Positions 6,812 to 14,872 of a stretch of 64,000 bases of DNA are shown in pieces. The notes beneath the pieces were generated by a model. The model searched no databases. It was not told the origin of the DNA and saw nothing but the letters and a program-made list of their open reading frames with translations. The stretch comes from Kaistia hirudinis (GTDB taxonomy: Bacteria > Pseudomonadota > Alphaproteobacteria > Rhizobiales > Kaistiaceae), in the NCBI RefSeq assembly GCF_014196455.1, contig NZ_JACIDS010000005.1, forward strand, positions 124,001 to 188,000, read 5' to 3'. Position 1 is the stretch's first letter. The number at the start of each line of letters is the position of its first letter. The position numbers and the translations under genes were made by a program.

Positions 6812-7174
<363 letters not shown>

Positions 7175-7233: not shown

Positions 7234-7566
7234 TTATGCCTCGCCCGGAACGAGGCGACCTGCGGCGAGCATGGCGTCGATCGCCGCGCAGGTCTCGGCG
7301 AAGGCCGTTTGATAGCCTCCGCCCGCCGCGCCCTGCCCGGCCTCTTCGGCGGCAAGGGCGAGGCCGCGAGCGCCGATCACCAGCGCGGCACCCTTCACCT
7401 TGTGCGCGAGCGCAACGCGGACCGCTGTTGCCTCCATATCGTCGAGGCCGGCCGCCTCGGCAGCGAGCGCGTCCCGGAAGGTGCGCAGCAGGTCGAGCGC
7501 CAGCGCCACGTCTCCGCCGGCGTTTGCAAGCAGAAGAGCCGTATCAATCGGCGGATCAGACGGCAT
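7234..7566 (-). CDS. Hpt-domain phosphotransfer protein
   Basis: About 110 residues from ATG 7566, which overlaps the preceding gene by 11 nt. It contains the Hpt signature ALAHKVKGAALVIGA, with His55 as the expected phosphorylation site, in an all-helical Ala-rich protein. Stand-alone Hpt proteins relay phosphate between hybrid kinases and response regulators. No partner is identified, although kinase and receiver genes lie 9 kb away. A longer frame reaches 7602 but adds an unlikely basic N-terminus. Confidence 0.75.
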   Translation of the reverse strand: MPSDPPIDTALLLANAGGDVALALDLLRTFRDALAAEAAGLDDMEATAVRVALAHKVKGAALVIGARGLALAAEEAGQGAAGGGYQTAFAETCAAIDAMLAAGRLVPGEA

Positions 7567-7837
7567 CGGATTCGTCGAGGGCGCCCGGCGCGAGCGCGGC
7601 AAGACCGGCCGGCGTGAGCTTGCAGATCAGCCAGTCGGGCTTGAGCGGATTGTCGAACCAGGGCGCCGCCCAGGCTCGCTCGATGCAGGAGCGCACGGTG
7701 CGTGGATCGATCTCGCGGCCATTGCGATCGAACAGCGGCAGCTTGCCGCCGGGCTCGCGGAGCCCGCGTTCGAGATAGCGACGCTGTGCTGCGGAAGGGC
7801 CGCTGCCACGCGGAGATGCACTGCGCTTGACGCCCAA
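7556..7837 (-). CDS. Unknown protein, possible winged-helix fold
   Basis: I do not recognise this family. From TTG 7837 (residue 38 of a frame open to 7948), the product is 93 residues, basic at the start, with AQRRYLERGLREPGGKLPLF and a conserved-looking tail WFDNPLKPDWLICKLTPAGLAAL. The LTPAG ending resembles the terminal wing of small winged-helix proteins, but this is only a resemblance. A GGAG precedes the TTG. It overlaps the Hpt gene by 11 nt, so the two are likely co-transcribed and functionally linked. Confidence 0.55.
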   Translation of the reverse strand: MGVKRSASPRGSGPSAAQRRYLERGLREPGGKLPLFDRNGREIDPRTVRSCIERAWAAPWFDNPLKPDWLICKLTPAGLAALAPGALDESDAV

Positions 7838-8155
7838 GGAGCTCGCTCCCGATCCGTTCCCGCGACGCTTTCGTCGCCCCGTCCAAGCTGTTGACAGGGA
7901 AGGCTTGCAGAGCCGGACTTCCTTGTGCCCTCGCCGTGAATGTGCCAAAACGTGGGGCTGTGGGCAAGGGTGTGGAGGCCAATCTGCCTCGTCCGGGGGA
8001 CGTTGCGGATAACGGCGGATCTACGGGGCCAGGCAGAATGTGCCGCGCTTTTGGCGCGGGACTGTCGTGTTCCGCAGGCATCCTCGTGCTTTCGACGAAT
8101 CGTATCTCGTCGAAGCGGCCGGTGAAGTATCGAGTACGGACGCGAGGCTTAAAGA
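7838..8155. other. 318-bp intergenic region upstream of the GPR-like gene
   Basis: No convincing gene was found. A TTGACA (7891-7896) is the best -35 candidate for the plus strand, but no good -10 follows at 16-18 bp. Near the start codon, TTAA-N7-CTAA (8149-8163) is one base from the CtrA consensus TTAA-N7-TTAA and overlaps the ATG at 8156. This region must hold the promoters of both the GPR-like gene and the divergent unknown/Hpt pair. Confidence 0.4.
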
Positions 8156-11100
8156 ATGGCTAACACTCCGAAGTCCAAGGACCCGGCGGACGCAGCGCTC
8201 TCCGCCGTGGAGCAGGCTCTCCGGAATGATTTCAGCTCGCCCTCCGTTGATCCTTCGGATCGCCCCGTGCCGTCCGGCGGCCCGCGCGATCGCCGCCTCG
8301 AGCAGCCGCGGATGAACGAGCGGCCGAATGAATCGCCGCGCGGCAATGCCGGCCCGCGCCGCGCCGATGCGCCCCGCAAGTCCGAAGTTGCTCCGCAGGC
8401 CGCAGCCGCTGCCTCGCCCCGCCCGCAGGCGCCGCGCCCCGATGCGCCGCGCGCCGCCGGCAATGACGACGCCTCGCCCCGCCAGCGCCGCGGTGAGCGA
8501 CGGAACCGCGTCGCGGCCAATGACGACCGCCGCGTCACCGGCGCCGGCCTGCCGGTCCGCCGGCCCTCGCGCCTGATCTATCCCGCCGCCCTCCTCCTCA
8601 CGGTCGTGTGGGTCGGTGCGGTGCTGTTCTATCTCTCGCAGGCCGGCATCAATCCGTTCGCCGGCCAGGGCGAGCTCGGCGTGGCCCAGTTCGCCAACAT
8701 CGCTCTCGCGCTCGCGCTGCCCGTCGGCATCGTCTGGGGCATCGCCATCATGGTGGCGCGTGCCCAGGAGATGCGCATCGCCGCCCGCTCGATCTCGGAA
8801 GTGGCAGCCCGCCTCGCCGAGCCGGAGCAGGCCGCGACCGAGGCCGTCGTGACCGTCAGCCAGGCGATCCGCCGCGAAGTCGCCGCCATGGGCGACGGCA
8901 TCGAGCGTGCGCTCGCCCGCGCCAGCGAACTCGAACTGCTGGTGCATAACGAGGTCGCCGCCCTCGAGCGGTCCTATTCCGACAATGAAGTCCGCATGCG
9001 CGGGCTGATCGACGACCTCGCCAATCAGCGCGAGGCGATCGTCATCAATTCCGAGCGCGTCCGCACGTCGATCGTGTCGGCCCAGGAGTCGCTCTCCAAG
9101 GACCTCCGCGAGGCGAGCGAGCAGATCGCCGAGAACGTCATCGAATCCGGCAGCCGCATCACGCTGGCGCTCTCCGACCGCGGCGAGCAGATCACCGTGG
9201 CGCTCGGCGCCGCCGGCGATTCCATGATCGACAAGCTGTCGGTGCGCGGCGAGGACCTCGTCAACCGCATGTCGTCGGCCGTCGGCGACGTGACGGAATC
9301 GCTGACGCGGACCGGCATGGACGTGACGGACCAGCTGCTCGCGCGCAGCGCCGAGATCAACGAGACGCTCGACACCACCGGCCGCGCCATGGCCGATACG
9401 GTCGCCGAGCGCGGCCGCGAAGTCAGCGACACGCTGGCCCGCATTGCCGACGAGCTCAATGAGGGCCTCGACCGCCGCACGGTCGAGATGACCCGGTCGA
9501 TCTCGATCACCGGAAATCAGGTTGCCGAGACGATCTCGCACCACACCCGCGAGGTGAATGCCGCGCTCAAGGCCAATGCCGACAGCCTCGTCGTCGATCT
9601 CGCGATCCGCGGCCAGGAGATCAGCGAGCGCCTGGACGAGACCGGCATGCGCGTCGCCGACACGATCTCGGCCCGCGGCGATGAGCTGGCCGAGCGCCTT
9701 GCCATCACCGGCGAGCGCATCAACGACGCCATTTCGATCGACGGCGGCAGCCTGGCCGAGCGCCTGACGGCCGCCGGCGACCTGATGGCCAATCTCGTCG
9801 AGGCGCGCACCCAGGCGCTGCGCGAGACGATCGACAGCGCCTCGGGCGCCGTGAACGAGGCCTTCGACGCCCGCGCCGCGGAGCTTACCGAGCGGCTCGC
9901 CAGCGTCGGCGGCGAGGTGGCCAAGGCCATCGCCGTGCGCGGCCTCAAGGTCAACGAGACCATCATCGCCTCCGGCAACGAGATCGCCGAGACGATGACC
10001 GCCCGCGCCAGCATGCTGCATGACCGCTTCATCAATTCGAGCCGCGACGCGATCGAGACGATGGAGAGCCGCGGCACGGCCGTCTACGACCTCATTATCG
10101 AGACCAGCCAGCAGCTGGCCGACGCGATCGAGACCCGCGGCACGACGATCCACGAGAAGATCCTCGCCTCCGGCGGCGATCTGGCCGCGACGATCGAGCA
10201 GCAGGGCGCCGAGGCGCATGAGCGCATCGTCGCATCCGGCTCGCGCCTCTCGTCCGAGATCGTGGAACGCGCGGATTCGGCCCATCGCCGCATCGTCGAC
10301 TCGGGTTCCGGCCTTGCCCGCGAGATCGAGCAGCGCGCCGACATCGCCCATGAGCGGATCGTCACCTCGGGCACCAATCTCGTCAACGAGATCGAGCACC
10401 GCGCCGGCGCCGTGCATGAGCGCATCGTCGCCTCCGGCTCGGGTATCGTCAGCGAGATCGCCGGCCAGGCGAGCGCCGTCCATCACCAGCTGATCACCGC
10501 CGGCACCTCGCTGGCCGACGAGATCGAGAACCGCGCGACGGCGGTCCATGAGCGCATCATCGCCACGGGCTCGGAGCTGATCGGCGATATCGCCAACCAG
10601 ATCGGCGCCGCGCACGAGCAGATCGTTACCTCGGGCTATGGTGTCGCGGACGAGATCGAGAGCCGCGCCAACAACGTCCATCAGCGCATCGTCTCCTCCG
10701 GCAGCGAGCTGTCCGAGGAGATCGCCAACCGGGCGAGTGCCGCGCATGAGCAGATCAACGAGACGGGGTCCAGCCTCGCCCGTGCGATCGAGGAACGCGC
10801 CACGGCGGTGCATCAGCGCATCATCGCGTCGGGTTCGGGCCTCGTCGACGAGATCGCCAACCGCGCCGACGCCGCCTTCCAGCAGCTGACGCAGTCCGGC
10901 TCGGGCCTCGCACGCGAGATCGAAGAGCGCGCCAACACCGTCCATCGCCAGATCATCGCCTCAGGCTCGACCCTGTCGGCCGAGATCGCCGGCCAGGCGA
11001 GCGCCGCCTTCCAGCAGATCGCGACCTCGGGCTCCGATCTTGCTGGAGAGATCGAGAACCGCGCCCTCGCCGTGCACGAGCGGATCGTCACCTCCGGCAC

Positions 11101-14100
11101 GTCGCTGGCCGAGGAGATCGAGAACCGCGCCGGCGCCGTGCATGAGCGCCTCGTCACCTCCGGTTCCTCGCTGATCGAGGAAATCGAAAGCCGCGCCGGC
11201 GTCGCCCATGAGCGCCTCGTCACCTCCGGTTCATCGTTGATCGAAGAGATCGAGAGCCGCACCGGCGTCGCCCATGAGCGGCTCGTCACTTCCGGCTCCT
11301 CCCTGATCGAGGAAATCGAGACCCGCACGGGCACCGCCCATGAGCGTCTTGTCGCCTCCGGCTCTTCGCTGATCGAGGAGATCGAAAGCCGCACCGGCGC
11401 CGCCCACCAGCGCATCGTCGCCTCGGGCACCGACATTGCGAGCGAGATCGAGAACCGCGCCGGCGCCGTGCACCAGCGGATCCTCGCGACCGGCTCGACG
11501 CTGGTCGAGGACATCGTCGGCCAGGCCAATGCGGCGCATGAGCGCGTCGTGGCCTCGGGCAACGACCTCGCCAACGAGATCGAGAACCGCGCCATCATCG
11601 TTCACGACCGCATCGTCGACACCTCGACGCGCTTCGGCGAACTGATCGCCGATCGCGGCCAGGCCATCGCGACCGGCCTCGACGAGCGCTTCGCGGCGCT
11701 GCGCGACATCATCGAAGTGCGCGGCCCCGAGCTGATCACCCGCTTCTCGGAGCGGGCCAATGTGCTCGACACCAGCCTTTCCGACCGGATCGGCGTGTTC
11801 GGCGACACGATGGAGCAGAAGCTCAACGCCGCCTCCGAACTGCTCGACGGCAATACCCGCCGCATCGACGAGGCGCTCGACGCCCGCTCGCGCCAGATCA
11901 GCCAGACGCTGGTCGAGCGCACGCGCCAGATCGCCGACGCTTTCGCCACCGGCCATGCCGAGATCAACTCGATCATCGACGTGCGCCTCTCCGACATCTC
12001 GGATCGCCTGACCGATCGCACCCAGGCACTGTCCGACATGCTCTCGGAGCGGACCACGTCGATCAATGACACGCTCGGCCAGCGCGCCATCGAGGCAGCC
12101 GACAGCTTCGACGCCCGCGCCGCGCAGATGGACAGCATCCTCTCGACGCGCCTCGGCGACATCACCTCGACGCTCGGCCGCGAATCCGTGCGCGTTGCGG
12201 AGCAGATCGTGAATTCGCTGTCGGAGGCCACGGAGCGGCTCGTCTCGGCCTCGGCCACGACCACCGATTCGCTGCGCCAGAACACCGAGGAATCGATCCA
12301 GTTCCTGGCGCGCTCCGGCGAGGAAGCGACCCAGTCGCTCGCCCGCTCGGCGGAAAGCGCCGCGGACGTCGTCACGCGGACCACGACGGAAGCCTCGCAG
12401 GCGATCAGCCAGGTCGCGTCCTCGACCATCGACCTGCTCGCCACGTCGGCGGCGGAAGCGACTGCGAGCCTCAGCCGTTCGGCGGCGGAAGTCAGCGACC
12501 AGCTCAACCGCAGCACCGAGGAAGCGGGCGACCGCTTCACCCGCCTCTCGGGCGACATTGCCGGCCGCCTCATCAGCATGGCGGGCGAGGTCGGCGACCA
12601 GATGGCGCGAGTCACGACCGAGGCCGGCGATCATCTCGCCCGCGTCTCGGGCGAGGCCACCCGCCGCTTTGCCGGCGTCTCCGTCGAGGTCAGCGGCCAG
12701 ATCGCCGAAGCCACCAACGAGGCGGGCAGCCAGTTCGCGCGCCTTTCGGAAGACGCGACCAGCCGGATCACCGGTCTCGCCGACAGCGTCACGGAGCAGA
12801 TCACGCGCGTCTCGACCGAGACCAGCGAACGCTTCGCCAGCCTCTCGGACGATGTCACCGGCCGCCTCACGGGCATTGCCAGCGAGGTCGAGCAGAACCT
12901 GTCCGGCCGTGCGCTTGCGGTTGCGACGGCGCTCGAGCAGCGCACGCAGACGCTGAACGAGGTGCTCGGCCACCGCTCGTCCGAGCTTGCCCGTCTCCTC
13001 GACGGCGAGGGCAACCGTCTCGTCAGCGCGCTCGACCAGCGCGGCGACGAGCTGACGCGCCGCGTTGCCACGGTCGGCGACTCGGTGGTCGACCTGCTGG
13101 CCTCGAAGGGCAGCGAGGTCGTCTCGATGGTGCTTTCGAGCACCGACCAGGCGGCGCGCACCCTGCTCGACAGCAGCGAGACCGTGTCGCGCAGCTTCGG
13201 CCTCGCCAATGAGCGTCTCAACTCCGACGTCGCCGGCATCGTCGAGCGGCTGGCGCAGTCGAACGACATGCTGAGCTCGCTGCTCGACAAGACGAGCGAC
13301 AATCTCAACCAGATCGAGACCGGCCTCGCCTCGCGCACCAGCGAATTCGCCGTCTCGATCGAGCAGGCGATCGGCAACACGCAGAGCTCCTCGTCCATGC
13401 TCGCCTCGCATGTCGCCATGCTGCGCGACGTGTCGAAGGAAGTGCTCGACAATGTCGGCGTCGTCGCCGGCCGGTTCGAGGAACAGGGCCGTTCGCTCCA
13501 GGAAGCCGCGCAGAACCTCTCCAAGGCCAACACGGACATGGAGACGGGCCTCGACGAGCGCCGCCTGACGCTGGAGCATCTCGCGGGCAGCCTGGCCGGC
13601 CGTTCGCAGGAACTGGACCTCCGCATGAAGTCCTTCACCGACACGGTGAGCGCTTCGCTGCGCGAGGCCGAGGAGCGCGCTGCCGAGGTCGCCCGCAATC
13701 TCGCCCAGTCGAGCGCCGAAGCGACCAAGTCGGTCGTGGCCAGCATCGAGGGTCTCGGCGAGACGGCCGGCGCTGCCGGAACGCGGACGGTGGAAGCCGT
13801 GCGCGCCGCCAATCGCGCGCTCATCGACGAGATGTCGGCCGTCATGGAGCAGGCCGCCAAGGACTTTGCCTCGGCGACCGACGGCATGCGCACCGCCACC
13901 AAGGAGATGCAGCAGGATCTCGAGACGACGCGCACCGAGATCAAGCGCGGCATTCTCGAGCTGCCGAACGAGACTCGCGAGAGCGCGGATGCCATGCGCC
14001 GCGTGGTGACCGATCAGCTCAAGGCTCTGTCCGAGTTGTCGGAGATCATCTCCAAGCACGGCAAGGCGCTCGACGTGGCGCTGCCCGCCTCGTCCACGCA

Positions 14101-14872
14101 GCCGAGCCGCAGCCGCATGTTCGAGCCGCCGGCTGCCGCGCTTCGCCAGCCCGCCGCCCCGGCACCCGCGCCGAAGGCCGCCGCTGCGCCCCAAAGCGCC
14201 GCGGGGATCTTCAGCCAGCCGGCATCGGCTCCGGTTGCGGTCGCGCCGGCCCCGGCGCCCGCTCCGGCCAAGCCCGCCCGGTCCGCTGCTGCACGCAGCG
14301 AGCCGGCTCCTGCGCCGAGCGCGCCGGCCGCCCGTCCCGCCCCCGCGCCGCAGCGCGAGGCCCGGGCAGCGGCCAAGGCCGCCCCGCAGCCCGAGCCGGT
14401 CGCCGAGGCGGCGCCTGCCGCTGCCGATGGCGAGCAGCGCGGTTGGGTGTCGGATCTGCTCCGCCGCGCCTCGCGCGACGAGGACGCCGTTCCGGCGCCG
14501 AAGGAGGCCCGCTCGGCCAATGGCCGCGGCAATGGCACGGCGGAATCGCTCGGCAATCTCTCGGCGGACATCGCCCGCGCCATCGATCCGCGCGCGGCGG
14601 CCGAACTGTGGGAGCGTCATCGCCGCGGCGAGAAGAACGTCTTCACGCGCCGGCTCTACACGCTGCAGGGCCAGCAGACTTTCGACGAGATCCGTCGCAA
14701 GTATCAGCAGGAGAACGAGTTCCGCGCCGCGGTCGACCGCTATGTCGGCGATTTCGAGCGCCTGCTCGCCGAGGCGACCCGCCAGGACCCGACGACGAGC
14801 AATGCCTATCTCGTCTCCGATACCGGCAAGGTCTACACGATGCTCGCCCATGCGAGCGGCCGCTTCGACTGA
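8156..14872 (+). CDS. Giant repeat coiled-coil protein, growth pole ring (GPR/RgsE) type
   Basis: 2238 residues. Residues 1-140 are disordered, basic and Pro/Ala rich. Two transmembrane segments follow (about 141-160 and 179-199). A very long helical region to about residue 1970 contains 22-residue repeats resembling apolipoprotein A1/A4/E domains. An Ala/Pro linker (about 1978-2095) leads to a compact C-terminal domain (IDPRAAAELWERHRRG onward). Size, membrane anchor and apolipoprotein-like repeats match the GPR protein of Agrobacterium and RgsE of Sinorhizobium, which form a ring at the growing pole and are needed for polar growth and rod shape. Identity is inferred from architecture. GAGG lies upstream of ATG 8156. 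Confidence 0.85.
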   Translation: MANTPKSKDPADAALSAVEQALRNDFSSPSVDPSDRPVPSGGPRDRRLEQPRMNERPNESPRGNAGPRRADAPRKSEVAPQAAAAASPRPQAPRPDAPRAAGNDDASPRQRRGERRNRVAANDDRRVTGAGLPVRRPSRLIYPAALLLTVVWVGAVLFYLSQAGINPFAGQGELGVAQFANIALALALPVGIVWGIAIMVARAQEMRIAARSISEVAARLAEPEQAATEAVVTVSQAIRREVAAMGDGIERALARASELELLVHNEVAALERSYSDNEVRMRGLIDDLANQREAIVINSERVRTSIVSAQESLSKDLREASEQIAENVIESGSRITLALSDRGEQITVALGAAGDSMIDKLSVRGEDLVNRMSSAVGDVTESLTRTGMDVTDQLLARSAEINETLDTTGRAMADTVAERGREVSDTLARIADELNEGLDRRTVEMTRSISITGNQVAETISHHTREVNAALKANADSLVVDLAIRGQEISERLDETGMRVADTISARGDELAERLAITGERINDAISIDGGSLAERLTAAGDLMANLVEARTQALRETIDSASGAVNEAFDARAAELTERLASVGGEVAKAIAVRGLKVNETIIASGNEIAETMTARASMLHDRFINSSRDAIETMESRGTAVYDLIIETSQQLADAIETRGTTIHEKILASGGDLAATIEQQGAEAHERIVASGSRLSSEIVERADSAHRRIVDSGSGLAREIEQRADIAHERIVTSGTNLVNEIEHRAGAVHERIVASGSGIVSEIAGQASAVHHQLITAGTSLADEIENRATAVHERIIATGSELIGDIANQIGAAHEQIVTSGYGVADEIESRANNVHQRIVSSGSELSEEIANRASAAHEQINETGSSLARAIEERATAVHQRIIASGSGLVDEIANRADAAFQQLTQSGSGLAREIEERANTVHRQIIASGSTLSAEIAGQASAAFQQIATSGSDLAGEIENRALAVHERIVTSGTSLAEEIENRAGAVHERLVTSGSSLIEEIESRAGVAHERLVTSGSSLIEEIESRTGVAHERLVTSGSSLIEEIETRTGTAHERLVASGSSLIEEIESRTGAAHQRIVASGTDIASEIENRAGAVHQRILATGSTLVEDIVGQANAAHERVVASGNDLANEIENRAIIVHDRIVDTSTRFGELIADRGQAIATGLDERFAALRDIIEVRGPELITRFSERANVLDTSLSDRIGVFGDTMEQKLNAASELLDGNTRRIDEALDARSRQISQTLVERTRQIADAFATGHAEINSIIDVRLSDISDRLTDRTQALSDMLSERTTSINDTLGQRAIEAADSFDARAAQMDSILSTRLGDITSTLGRESVRVAEQIVNSLSEATERLVSASATTTDSLRQNTEESIQFLARSGEEATQSLARSAESAADVVTRTTTEASQAISQVASSTIDLLATSAAEATASLSRSAAEVSDQLNRSTEEAGDRFTRLSGDIAGRLISMAGEVGDQMARVTTEAGDHLARVSGEATRRFAGVSVEVSGQIAEATNEAGSQFARLSEDATSRITGLADSVTEQITRVSTETSERFASLSDDVTGRLTGIASEVEQNLSGRALAVATALEQRTQTLNEVLGHRSSELARLLDGEGNRLVSALDQRGDELTRRVATVGDSVVDLLASKGSEVVSMVLSSTDQAARTLLDSSETVSRSFGLANERLNSDVAGIVERLAQSNDMLSSLLDKTSDNLNQIETGLASRTSEFAVSIEQAIGNTQSSSSMLASHVAMLRDVSKEVLDNVGVVAGRFEEQGRSLQEAAQNLSKANTDMETGLDERRLTLEHLAGSLAGRSQELDLRMKSFTDTVSASLREAEERAAEVARNLAQSSAEATKSVVASIEGLGETAGAAGTRTVEAVRAANRALIDEMSAVMEQAAKDFASATDGMRTATKEMQQDLETTRTEIKRGILELPNETRESADAMRRVVTDQLKALSELSEIISKHGKALDVALPASSTQPSRSRMFEPPAAALRQPAAPAPAPKAAAAPQSAAGIFSQPASAPVAVAPAPAPAPAKPARSAAARSEPAPAPSAPAARPAPAPQREARAAAKAAPQPEPVAEAAPAAADGEQRGWVSDLLRRASRDEDAVPAPKEARSANGRGNGTAESLGNLSADIARAIDPRAAAELWERHRRGEKNVFTRRLYTLQGQQTFDEIRRKYQQENEFRAAVDRYVGDFERLLAEATRQDPTTSNAYLVSDTGKVYTMLAHASGRFD
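10073..11656 (+). repeat. 24 tandem 22-residue (66-bp) coding repeats
   Basis: Residues 640-1167 of the GPR-like protein divide exactly into 24 units of 22 residues, with consensus A-x-A-V-H-E-R-I-V-A-S-G-S-x-L-x-x-E-I-E-x-R. Units 17-20 (11129-11392) are nearly identical in protein (HERLV-TSGSSLIEEIE core) yet differ at many third codon positions. Looser 22-residue units continue upstream from about 9300. The 22-residue period is the classical amphipathic apolipoprotein-type period (two 11-mers). Confidence 0.95.

Follow-up and report, generated by a model that had tools for sequence, protein, structure and literature searches.

The gene at 8156–14872 on the forward strand of the window (the whole 64,000-nucleotide stretch of Kaistia hirudinis DNA analysed here) is, as judged by homology, an ortholog of the growth-pole scaffold GPR/RgsE, a known family. 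Its central region appears to be a membrane-anchored, hendecad-based and probably coiled-coil rod that is under selection for helical phase and under looser selection for length, a reading to which we give a probability of roughly 0.7. We propose that the centre of this Rhizobiales scaffold would form one long alpha-helical rod of ~128 hendecads, in which 24 tandem 22-residue units would be hendecad pairs in mid-rod. Two transmembrane helices would anchor the N-terminus in the inner membrane, and the far end of the rod would carry the conserved C-terminal domain. The rod is predicted very likely to self-associate through one continuous hydrophobic stripe made up of the core positions of the hendecads, of which one is almost invariably G, A, S or T. 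Tandem duplication and deletion would lengthen and shorten the array, and the changes that persist would mostly restore the stripe to roughly its former face, by steps of 11n residues with or without one or two added heptads; selection would thus keep helical phase under tight control and total length under loose control. The sequence itself gave the homology, the register, the composition, and the lengths of units and the differences between arrays; helicity, coiled-coil packing, orientation and selection, rather than mutation, as the source of the pattern are what we infer. The features of the locus are as follows.

8156–14872, forward strand: gpr/rgsE ortholog, 2,238 aa (ORF; PF01442 match; N-cap and C-domain homology)
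8156–8566, forward strand: cytoplasmic N-tail, residues 1–137 (conserved columns 1–25 and 121–138)
8567–8767, forward strand: two predicted transmembrane helices (hydropathy peaks; homolog topology as published)
8768–9085, forward strand: conserved N-cap, residues 205–310, running into the rod (many conserved columns)
9005–13231, forward strand: hendecad rod, residues 284–1692, without register slip (129 consecutive V/I/L/M/F at spacing 11; phase; HMM)
10073–11656, forward strand: reported block, 24 x 22 residues, read as hendecad pairs (Tandem Repeats Finder; unit division)
11129–11392, forward strand: units 17–20, near-identical in protein, likely a lineage-specific expansion (unit comparisons; relatives)
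13250–14050, forward strand: conserved helical C-module, residues 1699–1965, mixed heptad/hendecad (conserved columns; HMM jumps past residue 1695)
14081–14437, forward strand: Pro/Ala-rich linker, residues 1976–2094 (sequence; length differences without an 11-residue pattern)
14438–14869, forward strand: conserved C-terminal domain, residues 2095–2238 (present in 380 of 397 genomes of the order)
7234–7602, reverse strand: small Hpt-like protein, a divergent neighbour outside the repeat feature (divergent homolog beside gpr)

The homology to GPR/RgsE proposed in a preliminary description of this DNA was supported by shared architecture and by the conserved ends of the protein. The PF01442 profile matched with E 9.3e-62 (208.5 bits against a curated cut-off of 90), in 13 overlapping stretches, compared with 10 and 11 in the loci L149 and L148. 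Against these two and L139, which together represent Agrobacterium and Sinorhizobium, identity is 61–62% in the N-cap, 62–63% in the C-terminal domain and 35–39% in the C-module; over the full-length protein it is 31% against L139. GPR (Atu1348, Agrobacterium tumefaciens; 2,115 aa) and RgsE (SMc00190, Sinorhizobium meliloti; 2,089 aa) are, at these published lengths, similar in size to the window protein and share with it two N-terminal transmembrane helices, PF01442 matches, a long helical centre and a conserved C-terminal region. Hydropathy of the window protein peaks inside residues 138–165 and 174–204, so placed that two predicted N-terminal transmembrane helices precede the long region whose periodicity suggests helicity, and within the N-tail short motifs are conserved at the beginning and just ahead of the first helix. 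Of 127 proteins, 126 keep a spacing of 81 between the landmarks at residues 189 and 270, and both end domains lie within one ORF in 76 of 80 fetched loci. A Pfam search with the C-terminal domain returned no family at E 0.01. According to the published work, from which growth-pole location and scaffold role are taken, GPR and RgsE assemble at the growing pole as a ring or focus and are required for rod shape. The Hpt-like neighbour, whose Pfam Hpt match falls below cut-off in the window copy, is a possible partner; in 115 of 129 regions a homolog of it lies upstream of gpr in divergent orientation.

The hendecad register of the rod is uninterrupted. Between residues 284 and 1692, V, I, L, M or F occupies 129 consecutive positions spaced exactly 11 apart. 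When residues 293–1694 were scored, the best register held these residues at 128/128 positions, compared with an occupancy of at most 0.41 in 500 shuffled rods, and the register is therefore far beyond chance. Strong hydrophobic residues cluster at two of the eleven positions, accompanied by one small-residue position; the three core positions follow a 3+4+4 spacing and are filled at 128/128, 123/127 (with Ala) and 116/127 (G/A/S/T). Old, diverged regions of the rod in which no DNA repeat remains stay in register. An HMM trained on the same 54 proteins that it scored agrees with this register and jumps past residue 1695. In the HMM slip counts over the 127 proteins of the length comparison below, the window rod has one slip in 1,447 residues and the Agrobacterium locus L139 nine, so that the window rod is the purer.

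The repeats that had drawn attention to this gene are one slice of that array. As previously described, 10073–11656 divides without gaps into exactly 24 in-frame units of 66 bp, and Tandem Repeats Finder reported 66- and 132-bp arrays across it. The boundaries of the block are nonetheless arbitrary, because the 11-residue register spans approximately residues 284 to 1692 without a slip. Nor are the repeats exact: 0/276 unit pairs are identical in protein, and mean amino-acid identity among the 24 units is 46%. Units 17–20 are the closest, with pairwise identities of 82–91% in protein and 82–88% in DNA. Each pair has 6–8 silent differences on ~17–18 silent sites and 2–4 replacement differences on ~48 replacement sites, giving pS 0.33–0.46 and pN 0.04–0.08. 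Across all 276 pairs, pN is 0.35 and pS 0.45, with pN the lower in 209/276. The suggestion that selection holds the repeat protein thus stands for units 17–20, where protein constraint is strong, and much less for the block as a whole, in which pN is not far below pS.

Silent divergence between units had also been taken to argue against very recent copying. Units 17–20 match one another in DNA at 0.83–0.88, but in the nearest relative, L034, no match to them exceeds 0.71, and in L035 and L036 none exceeds 0.73; since they resemble each other and not relatives' DNA, a lineage-specific expansion is the likely origin. Elsewhere in the gene, single-copy parts differ between the window and L034 by pS 0.38–0.49, the same level as units 17–20, and silent divergence between units is, on these comparisons, ordinary. 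Protein constraint on units 17–20 was retained and the argument against copying dropped. A further proposal, that selection favoured silent differences as a brake on recombination between the repeats, we consider highly improbable. Rare codons are somewhat commoner in units 17–20 (8/88 codons, against 108/2200 in the whole gene), and of 34 near-identical pairs of scan windows none lacks silent differences. However, silent difference does not exceed the level expected from random codon choice, either pooled (0.451 against 0.484, sd 0.016) or in units 17–20 (0.404 against 0.479, sd 0.067), and those 34 pairs, from a scan of 54 genes, have a median of 0.25 against 0.48. The equal divergence of single-copy parts between species also argues against it, and we rejected the proposal.

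We compared rod lengths across relatives, retaining 127 of 129 proteins. L054 and L093 were dropped for a missing landmark; L040, cut at a contig end, was left out of the length work, and L097, L102, L110 and L144, in which the end-domain match sits near the locus start, were dropped with one or both end domains outside a single ORF. The set is rich in Rhizobiaceae, and at least one genome seems to be present twice, as L059 and L161 (both contigs are 357,912 bases), a duplication that inflates protein totals, adds only zero differences and leaves nonzero counts unaffected. Array length ranges 3.7-fold, from 574 to 2111 aa (CV about 0.19). Among 52 matched pairs, in which each protein was used once and pairing was by 6-mer similarity (>=0.10) and not by tree, 35 rod-length differences were nonzero; 20 of these fall on multiples of 11 (P 1.2e-12 for an expected share of 1/11), and 31 belong to the classes 0 or ±4 modulo 11 (P 4.9e-14 for an expected share of 3/11), leaving 4 outside these classes. 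No excess of multiples of 11 was found in the control regions, namely the N-tail (0/37, with script-chosen start codons), the Pro/Ala linker (2/47), the C-linker (0/29) and the periplasmic loop (0/6).

Other measures gave the same picture. A scan for tandem units over 126 lags yielded 451 matches at 16 of them, 393 at 11n, 50 at 11n+7 and 8 at 11n+14, and none at any other lag. Alignment gaps, counted in overlapping and hence non-independent species pairs, were multiples of 11 in 194/230 cases (64 pairs), and within Rhizobiaceae 168/171 were 0, 4 or 7 modulo 11 (120 of 125 close pairs). HMM slips were of two coiled-coil-compatible kinds in 802/836 cases and of other kinds in 34. The unit lengths amplified in particular clades (22, 29, 40 and others) come close to whole turns of the helix. 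In purity most rods fall short of the window's: only 24/127 show a single slip or none, and the longest stretch free of slips has a median of 700 residues. A literature search, whose scope did not extend to the key hendecad survey, found no published report of this phase rule.

Because tandem arrays in any case gain and lose whole units, mutation alone can account for part of the pattern. That it explains all of it, with slippage or recombination between 33- or 66-bp repeats moving whole units and phase selection unneeded, seems to us quite unlikely. The commonest unit is indeed 22 residues (181/451 matches), and near-identical neighbouring units that could recombine are present. Yet 29- and 40-residue units are not multiples of 11 and still lie near whole turns, the 29-residue copies of one clade have identities of at most 0.24 at other lags, register persists in diverged regions without a DNA repeat, and the lags found are confined to the three classes above. 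Repeat number had also been suggested to act as a molecular ruler. Rod length is tight within the genus (13 species, 1311–1502 residues, CV 0.039), close to the 0.03–0.04 given for whole synaptonemal-complex proteins in PMC8598163, and the median straight rod length, ~202 nm, is near the published 200-nm ring. The tightness within the genus stands, but one functionally required length is improbable given the span among the 127 proteins, and a single fixed length across the set was rejected. A more speculative version, which we hold to be unlikely, is that GPR works as an extensible strut. It would be a coiled-coil rod locked in phase, ~86–317 nm long across species, whose length would set the size of the growth-pole ring or its distance from the tip; lineages would tune pole geometry by whole-turn units with the stripe fixed, and the agreement of ~202 nm with the 200-nm ring would be no coincidence.

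GPR has been framed in the literature as an apolipoprotein-like protein that has to fold up, its repeats being amphipathic helices that pack into bundles and, at the growth pole, bind lipid or sort it. Besides the PF01442 match, phmmer against PDB recovered apolipoprotein A-IV (9hx4, E 9.1e-6; 3s84, E 9.2e-4); these matches count against the coiled-coil rod. Human apolipoprotein A-IV has a 22-residue helical periodicity and weak sequence similarity to the window rod. In apolipoproteins the 22-mers are set off by Pro and contain much Lys, a pattern absent from the window rod, whose 1,402 residues include one Pro, no Trp and 0.6% Lys. Unlike apolipoprotein A-IV, the rod is strongly negative (net charge -93) and keeps its phase unbroken through 129 repeats; its strong hydrophobics lie at two of eleven positions beside a small-residue position. 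Deleting apolipoprotein-like domains disturbs GPR function, according to PMC8262873. Both readings need phase, and the phase rule alone does not decide between them; on rod composition we rejected the apolipoprotein reading as first choice and keep it as a rival that is rather unlikely.

The rod reading has parallels elsewhere. Scy and FilP of Streptomyces are likewise hendecad-rich rods of tip-growing bacteria. In the portion of PMC9858780 available, Scy has >1000 residues, nearly all in hendecads, with an Ala-rich core, where GPR has G/S/T besides A, and transmembrane helices and GPR end domains go unmentioned for Scy/FilP; the likeness is one of description. Synaptonemal-complex coiled-coil proteins, as described in PMC8598163, also keep a structural feature more than sequence; there length is conserved and coiled-coil indels are depleted, whereas in the window family indels are common but quantised.

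For bacterial polar growth, the sequence favours a picture of GPR as one long, unbroken rod whose helical phase would be what evolution protects, and the phase rule predicts that removing 22 or 44 rod residues would do far less harm than removing 20, 21 or 24. Published work on GPR gives domain coordinates of 232–494 and 1,036–1,381, that is 263 and 346 residues (domain coordinates, not construct end points), neither a multiple of 11, and small deletions of 20 residues or ranges of 21 or 22; at these sizes, the deletions do not distinguish losing a segment from losing phase. An alpha-helix rises 0.15 nm per residue, so that an extended 1,700-residue helix should measure about 255 nm, against a published figure of 600 nm. 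Should the rods prove to be coiled coils, long hendecad rods would serve tip growth in Rhizobiales and Streptomyces alike.

The repeat block at 10073–11656 lies in one open reading frame.

8156–14872, + strand: open reading frame of 2,238 aa holding the repeat block

We confirmed the gapless 66-bp division of the block reported in the preliminary description: it consists of 24 units of exactly 66 bp, all in frame. The word "exact" applies to unit length and not to sequence, as none of the 276 unit pairs is identical in protein, and mean identities over these pairs are 46% for amino acids and 62% for DNA. Near-identity in protein, also noted originally, is found in units 17–20 (11129–11392; 82–91%) but not in the remaining block.

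Hydropathy places two transmembrane segments within residues 138–165 and 174–204 of the encoded protein, followed in order by a conserved N-cap, a rod of 11-residue (hendecad) repeats, a conserved helical module, a Pro/Ala-rich linker and a conserved C-terminal domain (C-domain). The protein matches PF01442 (E = 9.3e-62), and no NCBIfam model scored above its cut-off. In a scan of named genomes from Rhizobium, Agrobacterium, Sinorhizobium, Neorhizobium and others, N-cap and C-domain fell within one ORF in 76 of the best 80 loci. Homologs from an A. tumefaciens MAG (L139), A. pusense (L149) and S. terangae (L148) are 2,136, 2,133 and 2,094 aa long when counted from the first start codon, in agreement with the published sizes of GPR (2,115 aa; PMC8262873) and RgsE (2,089 aa; PMC7327166), and the window protein is 31% identical to L139 over its full length. 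The proposed GPR/RgsE homology is borne out by the PF01442 match, the domain order and the presence of N-cap and C-domain in Agrobacterium and Sinorhizobium loci, and on sequence grounds we assign the window protein as a GPR/RgsE ortholog. The family is already known, GPR reportedly having been first described in a 2019 paper. Both GPR (PMC8262873) and RgsE (PMC7327166) are membrane-anchored proteins of the growth pole that give the cell its shape, and GPR is arranged as six foci in a ring of 200 nm (PMC8262873). RgsE, already termed repeat-containing with coiled-coil regions noted, has RgsA, RgsS and TolQ as partners (PMC7327166). The C-domain is found in 14/14 genomes of the genus and 380/397 sampled genomes of the order. 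Ten of the 17 genomes lacking a C-domain match have the N-cap, and the seven lacking both are at most 90% complete. In G049, G091 and G125 (family f36) and G081, G146, G219 and G315 (family f22), which have the N-cap without a C-domain match at the threshold used, the N-cap lies within open frames of 1,521–1,732 aa; in these genomes the C-terminal domain of gpr is predicted to have diverged or been lost.

The centre of the protein is predicted to be a rod bearing one continuous hydrophobic stripe. By direct, model-free count, V, I, L, M or F occupies residues 284, 295, 306 and onward to 1692, 129 consecutive positions in all; best-register occupancy in shuffled rods (n = 500) was at most 0.41. 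The other core positions hold A/V/I/L/M/F in 123/127 and G/A/S/T in 116/127 cases. Such 3+4+4 spacing is the hendecad a/d/h pattern, whose cores require small side chains or higher oligomers (PMC9858780). A cyclic 11-state HMM trained on 54 proteins found no slip (register change) from residue 293 to 1694, and the phase of the 11/3 component stayed between −31 and −85 degrees in windows of 88 residues whose starts run from residue 333 to residue 1609. Autocorrelation over residues 206–1975 peaked at 22, 44, 66, 88 and 110, and next at 11 and its odd multiples. Within the block it was strong at multiples of 22 only; it was about equal at 22, 44, 11 and 33 on the N-terminal side and at 33, 11 and 22 on the C-terminal side. 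The reported block is a slice of a longer array. Within it, His occupies unit position 5 in 21/24 units (10073–11656), so that His recurs along the rod at 22-residue intervals, possibly conferring pH or metal sensitivity. Very long antisense ORFs lie opposite gpr, most likely as a side effect of its GC-rich codons and the periodicity of the sequence.

8021–10945, − strand: antisense ORF, 974 aa
11231–14851, − strand: antisense ORF, 1,206 aa

Rod length across the family mostly follows a phase rule. Measured in 127/129 proteins between two non-repeat landmarks, at residues 270 and 1717 of the window protein, it ranges from 574 to 2111 residues (mean 1350, sd 254). In the first 52/53 species measured, 24 shared the window's length class modulo 11 and 11 were one heptad off. 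Proteins were paired by 6-mer similarity, each in one pair only to limit relatedness; rod length was unequal in 35 of the 52 pairs. The difference was a multiple of 11 in 20/35 (P = 1.2e-12 under 1/11) and 0 or ±4 modulo 11 in 31/35 (P = 4.9e-14 under 3/11). Among these pairs, the corresponding control counts were 0/37 and 8/37 for the N-tail, 2/47 and 9/47 for the Pro/Ala linker, 0/29 and 1/29 for the C-linker, and 0/6 and 0/6 for the periplasmic loop. Because only distances between landmarks enter, the test is independent of repeat alignment. Pairwise gaps, taken from overlapping, non-independent pairs, agree with it: 194/230 were multiples of 11 (64 pairs), and the 171 gaps from 120 Rhizobiaceae pairs were 0 (121), 7 (35), 4 (12), 3 (2) or 6 (1) modulo 11.

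A tandem scan of the 127 proteins (126 lags, landmarks 270 to 1904, identity ≥0.62) gave 451 matches at 16 lengths: 11, 22, 29, 33, 40, 44, 55, 58, 62, 66, 69, 77, 80, 88, 99 and 110. Every rod tandem length is 11n, 11n+7 or 11n+14; tails and linkers gave 13 matches, at lags 5–10 and 21. The amplified unit differs between clades. At 3.63 residues per turn, units of 29 and 40 residues make 7.99 and 11.02 turns. Copies of 29 residues in one clade show identity of at most 0.24 at other lags, and therefore no evident DNA repeat of 33 or 66 bp dictated the length of this unit. Slips within rods were of two kinds in 802/836 cases by the HMM, which found a single slip, at its end, in the window rod. 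The L139 rod, with nine slips, runs clean for at most 590 residues; at most one slip occurs in only 24/127 rods, and the longest slip-free run per rod has a median of 700 residues and a maximum of 1,787 (L077). We found no published phase rule in the literature on GPR, RgsE, hendecads and coiled-coil length or indels, few subscription journals being covered. Martinez-Goikoetxea and Lupas reportedly surveyed hendecad families in 2023, and GPR-like proteins may already be in that survey.

Silent change does exceed replacement change in units 17–20, as originally observed (pS 0.33–0.46, pN 0.04–0.08 per site); over all 276 unit pairs the contrast is weak (0.45 vs 0.35). Observed pS in units 17–20 was 0.404, against 0.479 (sd 0.067) for random synonymous codons of the same gene, and the single-copy N-cap, C-module and C-domain gave pS of 0.38–0.49 between the window and L034, the nearest relative compared. 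Silent sites are therefore near their ceiling throughout, and the meaning of the contrast is limited. Units 17–20 match one another at 0.83–0.88 and their best match in L034 at no more than 0.71; 12/24 units are nearer to an L034 unit than to others of their own gene. These units are best read as a lineage-specific expansion, probably old enough for silent-site saturation, with loss in L034 as the alternative.

The suggestion that repeat number sets a ruler fits the tight rod length within the genus (CV 0.039, 13 species), but not the spread across the 127 proteins (CV about 0.19, as computed from the mean and sd above), which excludes a single universal length. The genus value is similar to that for whole-protein length in Caenorhabditis synaptonemal-complex proteins (median CV 0.04 in the legend, 0.03 in the text; PMC8598163). 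Resetting of rod length lineage by lineage is compatible with the length data.

The genes upstream of gpr are as follows.

7234–7602, − strand: gene for a small Hpt-like (phosphotransfer) protein, divergent from gpr
6812–7132, − strand: 2Fe-2S ferredoxin (PF00111), beyond the Hpt-like gene

Divergent homologs of the Hpt-like gene lie upstream of gpr (up to 1.6 kb) in 115/129 regions, including L034, L148 and L149; of the 14 regions lacking a match, six come from the window's genus. The L148 and L149 copies score above the Pfam Hpt cut-off and the window copy below it. The position of this neighbour beside gpr suggests a connection between polar growth and a phosphorelay; the gene is unmentioned in the passages covered of a paper that names both Hpt and the growth pole ring. 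A ferredoxin homolog was found by tblastn in 112/133 gpr loci examined.

Profile matches to apolipoproteins would fit a helix lying on lipid, but the composition of the window rod (net charge −93, 0.6% Lys, one Pro and no Trp in 1,402 residues) speaks against this, and we infer that the rod packs as a homotypic coiled coil. Helices rise 0.15 nm per residue. At 0.15 nm an extended 1,700-residue helix is 255 nm long, versus the 600 nm published for the extended helical domain of that size (conclusions of PMC8262873). In the same paper, the coordinates of domains A-IV-1 and A-IV-4 are swapped between Results and Methods, and the small GPR deletion is variously 20 residues, 413–433 or 413–434, i.e. 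20, 21 or 22 residues; if 22, it would be in phase, and stagger would be expected in any case. This 20-residue deletion interfered most severely, to the authors' surprise, and by their own account their structural idea does not explain the foci of deletion proteins when alone (PMC8262873). Deletion subunits would be mismatched in phase or stagger with wild-type partners, and the mismatch would be absent where every subunit has the same deletion. We suggest such mismatch as a possible cause of the GPR deletion results, since it would account for both the severity of the 20-residue deletion and the foci that deletion proteins form alone.
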